Source: a virus. From it: a stretch of 37,097 nucleotides of DNA. Where the stretch lies: IMG/VR virus record IMGVR_UViG_3300034119_000121, positions 1-37,097 of that record, one strand, 5' to 3'. Under the pieces are notes generated by a model that saw nothing but the letters and a program-made list of their open reading frames with translations, was not told the DNA's origin and ran no database searches. Of the stretch, positions 20,557 through 34,394 are shown one piece after another (position 1 is the stretch's first letter; every line of letters begins with the position of its first letter). Made by a program: the position numbers and the translations under genes.

Positions 20557-22097
20557 CACGAACCCATCCATGAAGTTGTGGCGACACCGTTTTGAGCGTT
20601 GCGCCGGGTATTTGTTCGCTCATTGTACTCCCGATGTGCCACAGGGTACGCAAAGGTTACGGCAATGGCGTCAGCCGCATCGGGTGATGCAACTCCACGC
20701 GCTTTCATCTCCTTCTTGCCTTCCAAAAAGATGGTGCCAGCCGAGTTGGGCTTCTTCATCGGGCCGATCAGGTCGGACTTGAGCATCCTGTCCTGCGGGA
20801 TGCTGGCGGTCTTGAGCCAGTCGCGCATCGCACCCCAAATCTCAGCCCGCTTGTTGCCCCACATGGTTGGGTTCTTGGCCTTCCAGCCGAAGTTGACCCC
20901 ACGCACTTTGTACTTCTGCTCGGTCAATCTGTCAAGGATGCCGTAGCCCAGACCACCCTCGTCAATCACGGTCAACGCTGGCCGGTACTCCTCGATGGCG
21001 TCGATGACGTGGCCCACCACGCTCATGGTGTCCTCGCCCTTGAACCGCTTGATCGCCACGATGTCCCGCCCTTGGCGCACGGCGATCACGGTGCTGTCCA
21101 TGCCGCCACGGGCCGGGTCAACGCCGATGATGATGGGCGCGGTCATGTCTTTGTACAGGGGCCGCTTGATGGCATCGTCCACGATGTGTGGCGTGATGAA
21201 CTGGTCTTGGCCCGACTTGGGGAAGTCCCCGTACACCTCGACACGCGCCTCGTCCGAGTCCTCACCGTACTCGTTGATGATCTGTTGGTAGATGGTCTTG
21301 TCGGTGCCCTCGACTGTGCGGGCGTCGATCTTCTCGCTCTCCCAGAACTCCCGCTTGCTGCCGTCCACGGCCTCGTAGAAGTACCCGGTGTTGCGCCGAC
21401 CGTTGCTGAACGCCAGCCAGTACCGGTCCAAGATGTTCTCTGTAAAGAAGCCCGCAGCCACGGACCAGATACTGTCTGGGATACCTGACGCCTCGTCAAA
21501 GATCACCATCATGCCGTCCATGTTGTGCACACCGGCATAGGCGTCTGGGTTCTCCTCGCTCCACAGCTTACCCTCGGCACCCCAGTACCGGGTGCCTTTA
21601 CGCAGGTCACGCTCGACCAGATCAGTCAACCAGTTGGCCGGGTTCAGGCTCGTGGCCGTAGGTTCCCACCAGTGGGCGTTGAGCGCCATCGTGACCCATT
21701 TGGTCAACTCACCCCATGTGACCTTACGCAACTGGTTCTCGCTGTTGGCCGACACGATGACAGACGAGCCGATCCGAGTGGTCAGCATCCACAAGATCAA
21801 CCACGACACCAGTGCTGACTTGCCCACGCCTCGCCCAGAACTTACGGCCCTGCGCATCGCGTCGATCAACTCGTCGTTGCTCATCTTCCCCCGGTTCTCT
21901 TTGATGAAGTCCCGTATCCTGCGCAGCGCCCTACGCTGCCATGTGCGAGGGGCTTTAAAGTGTTCGAGTGGGGTGTTCTTCTGCCCCCAGGGGAACAGGA
22001 ACAAGACAAACGCTTCAGGGTCATCCTTCAGAGCAGGACTCCAAAGCTGACTCATCAGGGTCTGCTCATCTTCTGGGCTGTACCGGGGCTTCTGCAT
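20556..22097 (-). CDS. Terminase large subunit
   Basis: This 513-residue packaging motor has an N-terminal ATPase and C-terminal RNase H-like nuclease. Walker A is SGRGVGKSA (87-95), and Walker B with the catalytic acid is MMVIFDEAS (about 196-204). The nuclease domain shows IIGVDPARGGMDST (D327), TVIDEGGLGYG (about 376-386) and SPDAADAIAV (about 477-486). The set of acids for two-metal cleavage is intact. The start overlaps terS (TGATG). Together with the P22-type portal it suggests headful packaging, consistent with circular permutation. Confidence 0.95.
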   Translation of the reverse strand: MQKPRYSPEDEQTLMSQLWSPALKDDPEAFVLFLFPWGQKNTPLEHFKAPRTWQRRALRRIRDFIKENRGKMSNDELIDAMRRAVSSGRGVGKSALVSWLILWMLTTRIGSSVIVSANSENQLRKVTWGELTKWVTMALNAHWWEPTATSLNPANWLTDLVERDLRKGTRYWGAEGKLWSEENPDAYAGVHNMDGMMVIFDEASGIPDSIWSVAAGFFTENILDRYWLAFSNGRRNTGYFYEAVDGSKREFWESEKIDARTVEGTDKTIYQQIINEYGEDSDEARVEVYGDFPKSGQDQFITPHIVDDAIKRPLYKDMTAPIIIGVDPARGGMDSTVIAVRQGRDIVAIKRFKGEDTMSVVGHVIDAIEEYRPALTVIDEGGLGYGILDRLTEQKYKVRGVNFGWKAKNPTMWGNKRAEIWGAMRDWLKTASIPQDRMLKSDLIGPMKKPNSAGTIFLEGKKEMKARGVASPDAADAIAVTFAYPVAHREYNERTNTRRNAQNGVATTSWMGS

Positions 22098-22660
22098 CAG
22101 TCGTTCTCCAGTCTTGGTGTCACGTCGATCACCTCACCCTCGATCACCCGCATCTGAGCCTGCGCCAGCGCCTCAGTGATAGAGATGGTGCCACCGAGTT
22201 CAACCTGCTTGATCTCGCCGTAGCGTTTCTTGTTGTGTGCGCTCATGAGCCACTTGCGCGTGTCGATGCGCAGCTTGTCCCTGTTCACCGTATCGTTCGA
22301 TGTGGGGTCCACCGCTTCAACGCCATCGGCAATTTCTAGGATCTCGCCAGCCAAGAACTCAGTGCGCATCTCCTGCGCTTCCTTGAACCGTTCATGGCGG
22401 GTGGGTTCACGCTTGACCCAGCGCAGGAAGTCCTCATACGAGATGGCCCTGTGGTCATCCTCAATCAGCGATTGCAGGGACCGGCCACGGTAGATGTCCT
22501 CCACGACCCTCTCGAATATTTGCTCATATTCGACATGCAGCAACGCCCTTGCCTCCTTCGAGGTTCTGAGGGGTTCTGGGTCAGGCACGGACAGCCAGTT
22601 GGGCAGTTGATTTTCACTGGCGACAGCCGTGCCTACAAACGAGGTGTTCTCTTGTTTCAT
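22097..22660 (-). CDS. Terminase small subunit
   Basis: This 187-residue protein precedes terL, as small terminase does. A helical core holds HVEYEQIFERVVEDIYRGRSLQSLIEDD and a helix-turn-helix-like segment (ISYEDFLRWVKREPTRHERFKEA), followed by the oligomerisation-type WLMSAHNKKRYGEIKQVE. It should bind the pac site. The ATG at 22660 has no Shine-Dalgarno, and the predicted promoter would start the RNA only a few bases upstream. A longer frame running up to 22894 goes through the palindrome array and is unlikely. Confidence 0.85.
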   Translation of the reverse strand: MKQENTSFVGTAVASENQLPNWLSVPDPEPLRTSKEARALLHVEYEQIFERVVEDIYRGRSLQSLIEDDHRAISYEDFLRWVKREPTRHERFKEAQEMRTEFLAGEILEIADGVEAVDPTSNDTVNRDKLRIDTRKWLMSAHNKKRYGEIKQVELGGTISITEALAQAQMRVIEGEVIDVTPRLEND

Positions 22661-22670
22661 AGTGGCACAG

Positions 22671-22699
22671 ATGCTATCACGGGTGGTGGAGATGTGCAA
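22671..22699 (-). promoter_or_regulatory. Candidate late promoter, leftward
   Basis: On the minus strand TTGCAC and TAGCAT are separated by 17 bases, a plausible sigma70 pair. Transcription would start about 4-5 bases before the terS ATG, giving a nearly leaderless late mRNA. One ACCCACTGGGT palindrome lies 15 bases upstream of the -35 (22714-22724), where an activator could bind. Confidence 0.55.
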
Positions 22700-22713
22700 C
22701 GTGGGGGCTGTGT

Positions 22714-23236
22714 ACCCACTGGGTTTCTGATTTTTTAAAAAATTTATAGAGGATTCGTGATGCCTACGTAGCCGTGACCACTGGGCGCTCGGCCCTACCC
22801 CCTCCCCCTGATTCAAATGCACCCATGCACCCAGTGGGTCTGCACCATGACGCACCCGCACCCAATGGGAACGGCTACCCAATGGGGCAAACAACCCAGT
22901 GGGTCAGGGGTTCAGGGGTCAACCCAGCGGGTCATTGGGGCAAACCCAATGGGTCAGGGGTCATGACCCAATGGGTCAGGGAATAACCCGAGTCCTTGAC
23001 CCAATGGGGCAAAACAAGACGATTTGGGGGCATTGGTGACAGATTCACCTTTCGCGCAGGCAAGGCGAAAATTAGAGTACTTTCTAAATTGCACAAGGAT
23101 TAAGCAAACTACAAAACGAACCCCCAGCGACAAAAGGGCACTTTGTCACCAGTGCTCAAAGTACATACCCAATGGGTTAGGGAAAGCACCTAGAAGATAT
23201 TTTCGTGTAGGCTATTGACACAAGAACCCAATGGGT
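22714..23236. repeat. Array of 11 ACCCANTGGGT palindromes
   Basis: Copies start at 22714, 22829, 22860, 22877, 22894, 22922, 22944, 22966, 22999, 23167 and 23226, each 11 bases. Six are perfect palindromes with central A, C or G (22714, 22829, 22894, 22944, 22966, 23167, with 23226 the same), and the others differ by one or two bases. Seven fall within 22860-23009, several with GGGTCAGGGGTCA after them. A further copy is at 23483. This fills most of the gene-free 22661-23283 stretch. It reads as binding sites for a dimeric DNA-binding protein: operators, replication iterons, or both. Confidence 0.9.
22731..22748. other. AT-rich palindromic stretch, possible unwinding element
   Basis: TTTTTTAAAAAATTTATA is an 18-base all-AT run beside the palindrome array, in a region otherwise rich in G and C. 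Such a stretch next to repeated binding sites is the usual make-up of an iteron origin. It could equally be an UP-like promoter element. Confidence 0.45.
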
Positions 23237-23242
23237 TAGAAT
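23215..23242 (+). promoter_or_regulatory. Strong early promoter with an operator in its spacer
   Basis: A consensus TTGACA (23215-23220) and TAGAAT (23237-23242) are 16 bases apart. The perfect palindrome ACCCAATGGGT (23226-23236) fills the last 11 bases of the spacer and abuts the -10. A protein bound there would exclude RNA polymerase. It would drive the small rightward genes from 23284. Confidence 0.8.
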
Positions 23243-23253
23243 TGAGCACATCA

Positions 23254-23286
23254 ACAACCCGTAACCTGTAACTGGAGATCATCATG
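23254..23286 (+). promoter_or_regulatory. Recurring ribosome-binding leader, first copy
   Basis: A leader built from GTAACCCGTAACTGGAG appears before several starts. Copies end at ATG 23284, 23534 (23509-23536), 24029 (24003-24031), 24441 (24406-24443) and 28550 (28520-28552). A second type, GGAGTAAATGTAATG, precedes 30265, 31112 and, with one change, 36955. The GGAG core is the Shine-Dalgarno. The conserved part upstream of it exceeds what ribosome binding needs. Confidence 0.75.
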
Positions 23287-23481: not shown

Positions 23482-23487
23482 AACCCA

Positions 23488-23505
23488 GTGGGGCGAGAGC
23501 CCCAC
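23488..23505 (+). promoter_or_regulatory. Intercistronic GNRA hairpin
   Basis: GTGGGGC-GAGA-GCCCCAC is a perfect 7-bp stem with a GAGA tetraloop. It lacks a U run, and the recurrent leader for the next gene follows directly. The 5' arm overlaps a degenerate copy of the array palindrome (23483-23493). It is more likely an RNA processing or stability element than a terminator. Confidence 0.6.
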
Positions 23506-25315: not shown

Positions 25316-25648
25316 ATGACACAAACCGCCCCCAAACAACCCAAAACCCCCATCCCCGGCACTGTCGCAGCACTCGCCCGAGACACTGCCCAACGGCTCG
25401 GGCTTGATGAACCCCGTGCCGCTGAGTATTTCGGTGTGCCCGTCTACACTTGGCGCAAATGGTCAACGGGTGAACGTGAACCAGGGGCAGCGGTGGCCCG
25501 TTTGCTTGAAGTCTTGGGCATGATCGAAGCCCTAGCCCCCGACCTCCATCATTCGTTTCTGCCCCGTTTGACCGTTCGGCCTACTCGGGGTAGACGTGCT
25601 ACCCCCTCCCCCGCCCATAATTCGGTCATGTCAGAAAATCCCGTTTGA
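25316..25648 (+). CDS. Helix-turn-helix transcription regulator
   Basis: This 110-residue protein has a helix-turn-helix at about residues 30-52 (LDEPRAAEYFGVPVYTWRKW), followed by STGEREPGAAVARLLEVLGMIEAL, the usual Cro/YdaS-like layout. The C-terminal third is basic and Pro-rich, probably flexible. It stands alone behind a terminator. It is a candidate for binding the ACCCANTGGGT sites, but this is a guess from co-occurrence. A weak TTGACC lies in the upstream gap. Confidence 0.78.
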   Translation: MTQTAPKQPKTPIPGTVAALARDTAQRLGLDEPRAAEYFGVPVYTWRKWSTGEREPGAAVARLLEVLGMIEALAPDLHHSFLPRLTVRPTRGRRATPSPAHNSVMSENPV

Positions 25649-28316: not shown

Positions 28317-28334
28317 GTATCACAGTGGTGATAC
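28317..28334. promoter_or_regulatory. Palindromic operator upstream of the RHH gene
   Basis: GTATCAC-AGTG-GTGATAC is a perfect 7-bp inverted repeat in the divergent gap between primase and the RHH regulator. It overlaps an extended -10-like TGATACACT (to 28337). The RHH start has AAGGAAA downstream at good spacing. A related site stands at 36915-36932. Autoregulation by the RHH protein is the simplest reading. Confidence 0.7.
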
Positions 28335-32062: not shown

Positions 32063-33912
32063 GTAACGATTATGTCTACGATGTGGAAACCTTCCCCAAC
32101 GTCTTCACGTTGGCGGTGGAACACGCAGACGCGCCGCTTCAGTGGATGTTTGAGATCAGCGATCACCGCAACGATTCGCGTGAGATCGTCGCGTTCCTTC
32201 AGTACTTGAAAGACACCGATGCCCGCATGATCGGGTTCAACAACCTTGGCTTTGATTACCCCGTGGTGCACACCCTCGTGCGCATGGGCCACAGCGATGC
32301 CAACACGCTGTACCAAAAGGCGATGGCGATCATCAACGCGCAAGACGACGATGGTGGCCGCTGGATGCACTCTGTCAAGACCTCTGACCAGTTCGTCACG
32401 CAGATCGACCTGTTCAAGATCCACCACTTTGACAACCGCGCCCGGTCCACCAGCCTCAAGGTGCTGGAGTTCAACATGCGCAGCGACACAATTGAAGACC
32501 TGCCGTTCCCTGTGGGCACTACACTGAACCGCACACAGATCGAAGTGCTCAAAGAGTACAACAAGCACGATGTGGCGCAGACCAAGGCGTTCTATCACCA
32601 CACGCTTGACATGATCCACTTCCGTGAAGAACTGACGCGCAAATACGCCCGTGACTTCATGAACCACAACGACACCAAGATCGGCAAAGACTACTTCACC
32701 ATGAAGCTGGAAGAAGCCGGTGTCGCCTGCTACGACTTTGGCCCCAAGGGTCGCACACCTCGGCAGACCAAGCGCCCGGTGATCGCGCTCAAGGATGCCA
32801 TCTTGCCGTGGATCAACTTCGAGCATCCTGAATTTAACCGGGTGATGAACTGGCTCAAGGCTCAGACCATCACCGAAACCAAAGGGGTCTTCAATGACCT
32901 CACAGCAACAATCAATGGCTTTACTTTTGTCTTCGGCCTTGGAGGAATCCACGGCTCCATCGAGTCAGAGGTCATCGAGTCTGACGGTGAGTACGTCATC
33001 GTGGACTTGGATGTCACTTCATACTATCCAAACTTGGCAATCACGAATGGGTTTCACCCGACCCATCTCGGAAAAGAGTTTGTCAGCATCTACAAGCACC
33101 TGTTCGAGCAGCGCAAGTCGTACCCCAAGAAGTCAGCCGAATCGGCAATGCTGAAGCTGGCGCTGAACGGCGTCTACGGTGACAGCAACAACCAGTTCAG
33201 TGTGTTCTACGACCCGCTGTTCACCATGTCGATCACACTTAACGGTCAACTGCTGTTGTGCCTATTGGCCGAGGGGTTGATGCACATCCCCGGCCTGCGC
33301 ATCATCCAGGTCAACACCGATGGCCTGACAGTGCGTGTGCCCCGCAGCCACAAGATGCTGGTCGATCTGGCCCGCGCTGCATGGCAGTCGCGCACCGGGT
33401 TGAACCTTGAGGAAGCCGTGTACAAGGCCATGATGGTGCGCGATGTCAACAACTACATCGGCGTGTTTGAGAACGGCAGCACCAAGCGCAAGGGTGCTTA
33501 CGAGTGGGACATGGAGTGGCACCAGAACGCTGGTGGGCTGGTGATTGCCAAGGTGGCCGAGAAGGTACTGGTTGAAGGTGCTCCCATCCGCGAAACCATT
33601 GAGCAGTGGCCCGACATCATGGACTTCATGCTGCGCACCAAAGTGCCCCGGTCGAGTCACTTGGGCATCGAGCGTAACGGCGTGACATCGCAGCTTCAGA
33701 ACACCACGCGCTACTACGTGGCCGAGGGTGGCGGGCAGTTGGTCAAGTACATGCCACCGCTTGCAAAGAAGCCCGAGCAGTGGCGCAAGTTTGCCGTTGA
33801 GAGTGGCTGGGGTGTGCAGCCTTGCAACGACATCAAGGACGCTGGCAAGCTGCCAGTCAATTTCGAGTATTATGTGAAAGAGGTAGAAAAACTTGTTCTC
33901 CACTTAGCATGA
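32059..33912 (+). CDS. Family B DNA polymerase
   Basis: This 617-residue replicative polymerase has proofreading exonuclease and polymerase domains. The exonuclease motifs are D8/E10 in YDVETFP, FNNLGFDYP (60-68) and Y167-x3-D171. Polymerase motif A is DVTSYYPNL with D318, motif B is KLALNGVYG (K366, N370, Y373), and motif C is VNTDG with D421. GLGGIHGS (293-300) lies where the YxGG link motif is. The first acid of motif C (usually DTD) is Asn here, which is tolerated since the second Asp is catalytic. It is short for family B. Protein priming cannot be decided, but a PrimPol primase is present. Confidence 0.92.
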   Translation: MSNDYVYDVETFPNVFTLAVEHADAPLQWMFEISDHRNDSREIVAFLQYLKDTDARMIGFNNLGFDYPVVHTLVRMGHSDANTLYQKAMAIINAQDDDGGRWMHSVKTSDQFVTQIDLFKIHHFDNRARSTSLKVLEFNMRSDTIEDLPFPVGTTLNRTQIEVLKEYNKHDVAQTKAFYHHTLDMIHFREELTRKYARDFMNHNDTKIGKDYFTMKLEEAGVACYDFGPKGRTPRQTKRPVIALKDAILPWINFEHPEFNRVMNWLKAQTITETKGVFNDLTATINGFTFVFGLGGIHGSIESEVIESDGEYVIVDLDVTSYYPNLAITNGFHPTHLGKEFVSIYKHLFEQRKSYPKKSAESAMLKLALNGVYGDSNNQFSVFYDPLFTMSITLNGQLLLCLLAEGLMHIPGLRIIQVNTDGLTVRVPRSHKMLVDLARAAWQSRTGLNLEEAVYKAMMVRDVNNYIGVFENGSTKRKGAYEWDMEWHQNAGGLVIAKVAEKVLVEGAPIRETIEQWPDIMDFMLRTKVPRSSHLGIERNGVTSQLQNTTRYYVAEGGGQLVKYMPPLAKKPEQWRKFAVESGWGVQPCNDIKDAGKLPVNFEYYVKEVEKLVLHLA

Positions 33913-34394
33913 TCAATCAATCCAAACTCCACGAAATGTTTGAGTACCGCGATGACGGAAATCTCATTCACCGACACACTGTTCAAGGTGGTAAACGCGC
34001 CGGTGAGATTGCGGGTTCCCCACATAACGCCGGTTACCGTCAAATCACAATTAGCCGCAAAAAGTATTTGATTCACCGTCTTATTTGGGTGTACCACTAT
34101 GGGGAAATGCCAACACAGATTGACCACATCAATGGGCAACGATCAGACAACCGAATTGAAAACTTGCGCGAGTGTTCGTACAGCCAAAACCACGGCAACA
34201 AGCGAATGAACCGCAACAACACCAGTGGGTACAAGGGTGTGTTTTTAGACAAGCGTGATGGTTTTTGGTTTGTGTATGTGGCGCATCAATACATTGGGCG
34301 CAGTCAATCAATAGAAGAAGCTGCCGCCATGTATGACAAAGCAGCCAAGAAACATTTTGGAAAATTTGCGTTAACTAATAAGGAGATGAAATGA
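33909..34394 (+). CDS. HNH/AP2 homing endonuclease
   Basis: This 161-residue protein has an N-terminal HNH_3-type nuclease (QIDHINGQRSDNRIENLREC, H73, with DNR and N85) and a C-terminal AP2-like DNA-binding domain (NNTSGYKGVFLDKRDGFW, GRSQSIEEAAAMYDKAAKKH). This is the standard free-standing phage homing endonuclease. It lies between polymerase and DUF3310 genes, overlaps the polymerase stop as ATGA and looks intact. A longer upstream frame overlaps polB and is rejected. Confidence 0.9.
   Translation: MINQSKLHEMFEYRDDGNLIHRHTVQGGKRAGEIAGSPHNAGYRQITISRKKYLIHRLIWVYHYGEMPTQIDHINGQRSDNRIENLRECSYSQNHGNKRMNRNNTSGYKGVFLDKRDGFWFVYVAHQYIGRSQSIEEAAAMYDKAAKKHFGKFALTNKEMK

Follow-up and report, generated by a model that had tools for sequence, protein, structure and literature searches.

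A palindrome array between the early and late genes of freshwater phages as the probable operator region of a one-protein transcription switch

The stretch of DNA analyzed here (hereafter the window) is IMG/VR virus record IMGVR_UViG_3300034119_000121, positions 1 to 37,097, read as one strand of 37,097 nucleotides. Its structural genes run leftward from terS, and its early and replication genes run mostly rightward. Among named phages, its nearest relative is Phage DSL-LC05, which was assembled from a Dishui Lake metagenome and assigned to the proposed family Luchaoviridae (PMC10611076); protein identities are 92% for TerL, 91% for PolB, 90% for the portal protein and 92% for the helicase. 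By genome-wide relatedness to DSL-LC05, the window falls within the same proposed family. The phage group is large, mostly uncultured and of freshwater origin; a search of a genome collection for a hint of the host returned TerL relatives on only two short MAG contigs and no clear host. Relatives were gathered via terS (80), via the DNA pattern (67 stretches) and via the primase (80), these sets overlapping one another. Sites, promoter geometry, helical phasing and the co-occurrence and co-variation of the sites with a helix-turn-helix (HTH) gene were computed from these sequences.

The first late gene, terS, codes for the small terminase subunit (22097–22660, minus strand, ATG at 22660–22658; PHROG phrog_1482, E=2e-23). 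Upstream of it, a single intergenic region holds a palindrome array together with other conserved elements. When one mismatch is allowed, the motif ACCCANTGGGT occurs in 11 copies from 22714 to 23236, and a twelfth site, ACCCAGTGGGG, is located just past the first early ORF (23483–23493, plus strand) and is retained in the close relatives L002, L003 and L014. The region 22661–23283 thus contains 11 matches, seven of them exact, while the remaining 36.5 kb of the window yield three matches with one mismatch and no exact one. Shuffling the region 2,000 times with dinucleotides preserved gave a mean of 0.10 matches and a maximum of 2. Among 12 genomes, 71 of 79 ACCC-N3-GGGT matches were situated no more than about 750 bp ahead of terS, corresponding to a density ratio of about 430. 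Nearly all relatives whose sequence extends far enough have the array in front of terS as well, among them DSL-LC05 (33446–33970 of OR003940), although the paper describing that phage mentions neither promoters nor repeats nor a repressor (PMC10611076). A scan of the window against Rfam gave no match, and hence no described RNA element.

The invariant part of the sites is ACCC-N3-GGGT, and the outer ACCC...GGGT is constant among relatives. The centre is asymmetric in most sites and is AAT/AGT in most phages, AGC/GCT in L020, L025, L033, L062 and L115, and partly GGT in L018, L019 and L021. These phage-specific centres indicate that the units of an array change in concert inside one phage. Eight sites of the ACCC-N3-GGGT type form a central cluster (22829–23009, plus strand), starting at 22829, 22860, 22877, 22894, 22922, 22944, 22966 and 22999. 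In relatives, the number and spacing of sites in this cluster are variable and unphased. Neighboring array sites showed no helical phasing (R ~0.1), so that a phased filament along the array is unsupported. Site 10 (23167–23177, plus strand) lies 59 bp upstream of site 11, and a spacing of 59–60 bp is common in relatives.

Site 11 (23226–23236, plus strand) is part of the early promoter. The latter, TTGACA (starting at 23215)-N16-TAGAAT (ending at 23242), occupies 23215–23242 on the plus strand, agrees with the consensus at 11 of 12 positions and is the only sigma70-like match in the array area. The palindrome fills the spacer between the -35 and -10 elements, and its 3' end abuts the -10. The same design, with TTGACA, a spacer of 16–17 bp and TANANT, recurs in 33 distinct sequence contexts (scores of 10–12 out of 12), and the register of the site relative to the -10 is constant in all 33 distinct relatives. 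Judged by position, a protein bound here would have the usual geometry of steric repression. Farther into the early region, a near-identical leader, AACCCGTAACTGGAGAT, precedes several small early ORFs (at about 23257, 23511 and 24008), and a variant form is repeated in DSL-LC05.

The presumed late promoter is located on the minus strand at 22671–22699 and consists of the -35 element TTGCAC (22699–22694), a 17-nt spacer and the -10 element TAGCAT (22676–22671), from which a transcription start near 22664 is predicted. Some 10 nt separate the presumed -10 from the terS ATG, and the sequence ACT-ATG is kept in all 81 distinct linkers. A -10-like hexamer is found 9–10 nt before this ATG in nearly all relatives, despite turnover of the promoter sequence; since this distance is so short, the late mRNA may have almost no leader. 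The late -35 elements and linkers are of several unrelated kinds (TAGACA-N17-TACACT, TTGCAC-N17-TAGCAT, TTGCGC-N17-TACACT and TTACAC-N18-TAGCAT). Across relatives, the late promoters are weak and the early promoters near-consensus.

Site 1 (ACCCAGTGGGT read leftward; 22714–22724, minus strand), the proposed activator site, lies upstream of this promoter, with its centre at about -55 from the predicted late start and 43 bp from the -10. Among the 81 distinct linkers, the distance from the centre of site 1 to the -10 is 32–34, 42–44 or 52–53 bp and almost never between. Measured from the terS ATG (at 22660 in the window), the linkers are 41–43 (17 cases), 51–54 (33) or 61–63 nt long (23), and none falls at 44–50 or 55–60; one -10, that of L220, was mis-assigned by the script. 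The remaining eight linkers are longer, and in most of them an additional degenerate site, 33 bp closer, keeps the phase. Upstream of terS in L006, L024, L034, L048, L052, L054 and L057, site 1 was likewise seen in duplicate, with a constant offset of 33 bp (ACCCANTGGGTAAATGCTTCTACGAACCATTGACCCCANTGGGT). At a period of 10.5 bp, the phasing of site 1 to the -10 has a Rayleigh R of 0.89, and R is again 0.89 when each promoter cluster and length class is reduced to one point (35 points), the p-values being computed without tree correction. The same type of late promoter is found at two lengths ten apart, and common descent of the promoter therefore does not explain the length classes. Relative to the predicted start, the centre of site 1 is thus near -45, -55 or -65 and on one face of the helix, as indicated by three distance classes about 10.5 bp apart and the R of 0.89. 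Such phasing is expected of an activator that acts from one helix face. The core of site 1 is AAT/ACT even in phages whose arrays use AGC cores, which could point to another binding strength or to a second binder. The initial annotation had described 11 copies between the early and late genes, one of them in the spacer of a near-consensus rightward promoter and one just upstream of a leftward late promoter candidate. All three parts are borne out, and the two comparisons it had proposed, with shuffled background and with the region upstream of terS in related phages, left the claim unrefuted.

Which protein binds these sites is suggested by the gene at 25316–25648 (plus strand), the last rightward gene before the opposing primase. 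It sits downstream of the early promoter and has the same orientation, as a regulator among the early genes should, and codes for a 110-aa protein with an HTH domain of the XRE/MqsA type that contains no cysteines. AlphaFold predicts a confident helical core for residues 17–79, and a Foldseek search with this model retrieved XRE, HigA2 and MqsA C-terminal domains with a TM-score of about 0.67 by target length, albeit with weak E-values (best 0.07). Profile matches are likewise weak: 19.3 bits against a cut-off of 30 for the MqsA antitoxin family (PF15731, profile positions 76–121 only) and 19.5 bits against a cut-off of 70 for the VC1465/XafT Xer recombination activation factor (NF040522). The zinc-binding CxxC N-terminal domain of MqsA is absent. 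On account of these scores and the absent domain, identification of the protein as an MqsA was rejected. In DSL-LC05, the ortholog is annotated as “repressor protein C.” The HTH helix, V-P-[VI]-[FY]-T-x-[RK]-K-W, is nearly invariant among relatives, as would be expected for a protein that reads a constant half-site.

Co-occurrence was assessed in 86 distinct contigs spanning terS to the primase. The HTH family was present in all 81 contigs with CCCANTGGG-type sites in the array region and in none of the five without such sites. Three or more perfect ACCC-N3-GGGT sites were found in 74 of the 81, and those inspected among the other seven had CCCANTGGG-like or degenerate sites. The five HTH-less contigs (L075, L081, L187, L188 and L212) have other repeats instead, e.g., AAACATC...GATGTTT, and they keep terS, the primase, an A/T tract and, where the contig extends that far, the gene for a ribbon-helix-helix (RHH) protein. 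These five contigs are related, so that the contrast amounts to one or two events. Upstream of terS, such relatives carry AAACATC...GATGTTT and TGTAAC-type repeats, and a DNA-clamp-like early protein is common among them. In G012/L115, the primase and the RHH protein are about as diverged as in the contigs without the HTH gene, yet the HTH gene and the array are kept. Furthermore, the composition of the array cores correlates with HTH distance when terS and primase are controlled for (partial Mantel r=0.33, p=0.0005; 67 contigs), while given the HTH protein the values are r=0.07 (p=0.08) for terS and r=0.10 (p=0.02) for the primase in the same 67 contigs. By this measure, the array core sequence tracks the HTH protein better than it tracks the array-adjacent terS or the primase, and the HTH protein 25316–25648 is the likely binder of the array. 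Binding of ACCC-N3-GGGT by an HTH dimer is also geometrically reasonable by analogy, since MqsA binds AACCT-N3-AGGTT (PMC4894380).

Taken together, these comparisons make it probable that the array serves as operator region in a switch from early to late transcription that is run by a single protein. In this model, host RNA polymerase would start the early genes at the strong promoter 23215–23242, and the first early block would end with the small HTH protein, which would dimerize and bind ACCC-N3-GGGT. At site 11, the protein would occupy the spacer of the early promoter and turn it off. At site 1, held on a fixed helix face at about -45, -55 or -65 (about -55 in the window), it would recruit polymerase to the weak late promoter and thereby drive terS and the leftward structural operon, and the extra central sites would probably set the threshold or the cooperativity of the switch. 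Binding, dimerization, repression, activation and the role of the extra sites are what we infer. The suggestion of the initial annotation that a single dimeric protein could repress early genes and activate late ones is thus supported by sequence comparison, through the spacer operator, the phased site 1 and the co-occurrence and co-variation with the HTH gene.

In the main rival reading, site 1 would serve looping repression instead of activation. The HTH protein might be a repressor only, which shuts the early promoter and, by looping site 1 to the array, also holds the late promoter off, while another factor activates the late genes. Looping needs helical phasing as well, the distances from site 1 to the early site are moderately phased at 10.5 bp (R=0.51), and multiple sites suit cooperative repression. 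On the other hand, repressor sites normally overlap their promoter, but site 1 is placed farther upstream than the -35; site 1 is much more sharply phased to the late promoter (R=0.89) than to the array, whose neighboring sites are unphased; and weak late promoters would need help. A purely repressing role is therefore regarded as improbable.

The intergenic region contains two further conserved elements, which raise the question of a replication origin. An A/T tract, GATTTTTTAAAAAATTTATAGAGGATTC plus GTGATGCCTACGTAGCC (22725–22773), is conserved in relatives in a 57-sequence alignment and present in similar form in the array-less L075, L081 and L212. An inverted repeat, GTGACAGATTCACCTTT ... 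AAAGGGCACTTTGTCAC, with an inner TTTCGC/GCGAAA palindrome (23030–23155), has arms of about 16–23 bp that are about 80 nt apart and change together in several relatives; it is found in most relatives and in four of the five array-less contigs. The array repeats might accordingly be origin iterons that adjoin an A/T-rich element for unwinding and are recognized by the phage primase (a Prim-Pol/DUF3987 protein encoded in the genome) or another initiator, and both the adjacent A/T tract and the conserved inverted repeat within the array would fit this view. Yet the A/T tract, the primase (72–73% identical to the window protein) and in most cases the inverted repeat persist in the array-less phages, the equally diverged primase of G012/L115 goes with a retained HTH gene and array, and iterons leave the promoter registers unexplained. 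An origin made of the array is thus very unlikely and was rejected. The inverted repeat, which fits an origin better, is a separate element inside the array, possibly a replication origin or a regulatory element.

Least probable of all is binding of the array by the RHH protein (start 28363), the other candidate of the initial annotation, or by a host regulator: the RHH protein is conserved in complete relatives and short palindromes suit such proteins, but it persists in phages without the array (L118, L188 and L212), its gene has no ACCC site upstream except one likely chance match and has a palindrome of its own in the window at 28317, and a host regulator leaves the link with the HTH gene unexplained, so that of the two proteins initially named only the HTH protein, which co-occurs and co-varies with the array, is upheld. 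This palindrome, GTATCACAGTGGTGATAC (28317–28334), lies between the divergent primase and RHH genes, just upstream of the latter, and is a possible RHH operator seen in near relatives only.

The proposed switch resembles that of Bacillus phage phi29, in which protein p4 represses promoters A2b and A2c and activates A3, a promoter with a poor -35, from sites between the promoters (PMC3100819). In common are a single early phage protein, a set of inverted repeats that separates early from late promoters, with sites at both divergent promoters (sites 1 and 11 here, and their counterparts in relatives), overlap of sites with early promoter elements, A-tracts at the sites, and a late promoter whose -35 is poor and which depends on the protein (PMC3100819), a dependence that is proposed for the window. 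The components differ: p4 has its own fold, recognizes CTTTTT-15bp-AAAATG at four sites and works with p6, whereas the window has an XRE/MqsA-type HTH protein, ACCC-N3-GGGT, about 11 sites and no identified p6 counterpart. As protein, site and site number differ, the window system would share p4-like logic by analogy, with no homology, and stands outside the p4 family.

With MqsA (E. coli YgiT) and HigA-type XRE proteins, the window protein shares an HTH domain that aligns with the MqsA C-terminal domain, and the MqsA operator has the same half-site spacing and the outer bases ACC/GGT in common with ACCC-N3-GGGT, the putative operator here (PMC4894380). In contrast to MqsA, the protein has no zinc-binding N-terminal domain, no MqsR-like partner was noticed, its scores fall below the family cut-offs, and it apparently serves a switch of the lytic cycle rather than repression of a toxin-antitoxin system.

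Lambdoid immunity regions (CI/Cro) likewise combine an XRE-type regulator with operators in divergent promoters, and exchange regulator and operators as a module. The system described here would be similar in these respects, but with one regulator instead of two and apparently direct control of the late structural operon. No integrase or lysogeny genes are present among the 58 annotated features of DSL-LC05. In a distant relative, Rhodoferax phage P26218, a cluster of TGCTAC/GTAGCA repeats lies beside the terminase genes (L116:33300–33653). The repeats in the equivalent intergenic region of this phage include no ACCC family, and the cluster could be an analogue of the array that is built on a different motif. 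A literature search that covered few subscription journals returned only unrelated papers and no description of a ACCCANTGGGT-type motif or of such a dual early/late switch, in keeping with the initial remark that no phage switch with this site was known.

On balance, though with more reserve than for the operator region itself, we favor the view that a large freshwater phage family passes from early to late transcription by a one-protein lytic switch not described before, which consists of an MqsA/HigA-type HTH protein and an ACCC-N3-GGGT array. Regulator and operators would move together as a module, and late promoter cassettes would be swapped freely if the activator site keeps its helical face at -45, -55 or -65. 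For almost every uncultured phage, it is not known how transcription is controlled. In the present group, some 80 natural variants link one small HTH family to its putative operator and provide a ready-made spacing experiment on the distances between activator site and promoter that evolution allows. If the model is true, it would extend phi29-type logic to a different protein family and would offer a compact repressor-activator, along with a means of recognizing early/late switches in phages known from metagenomes.
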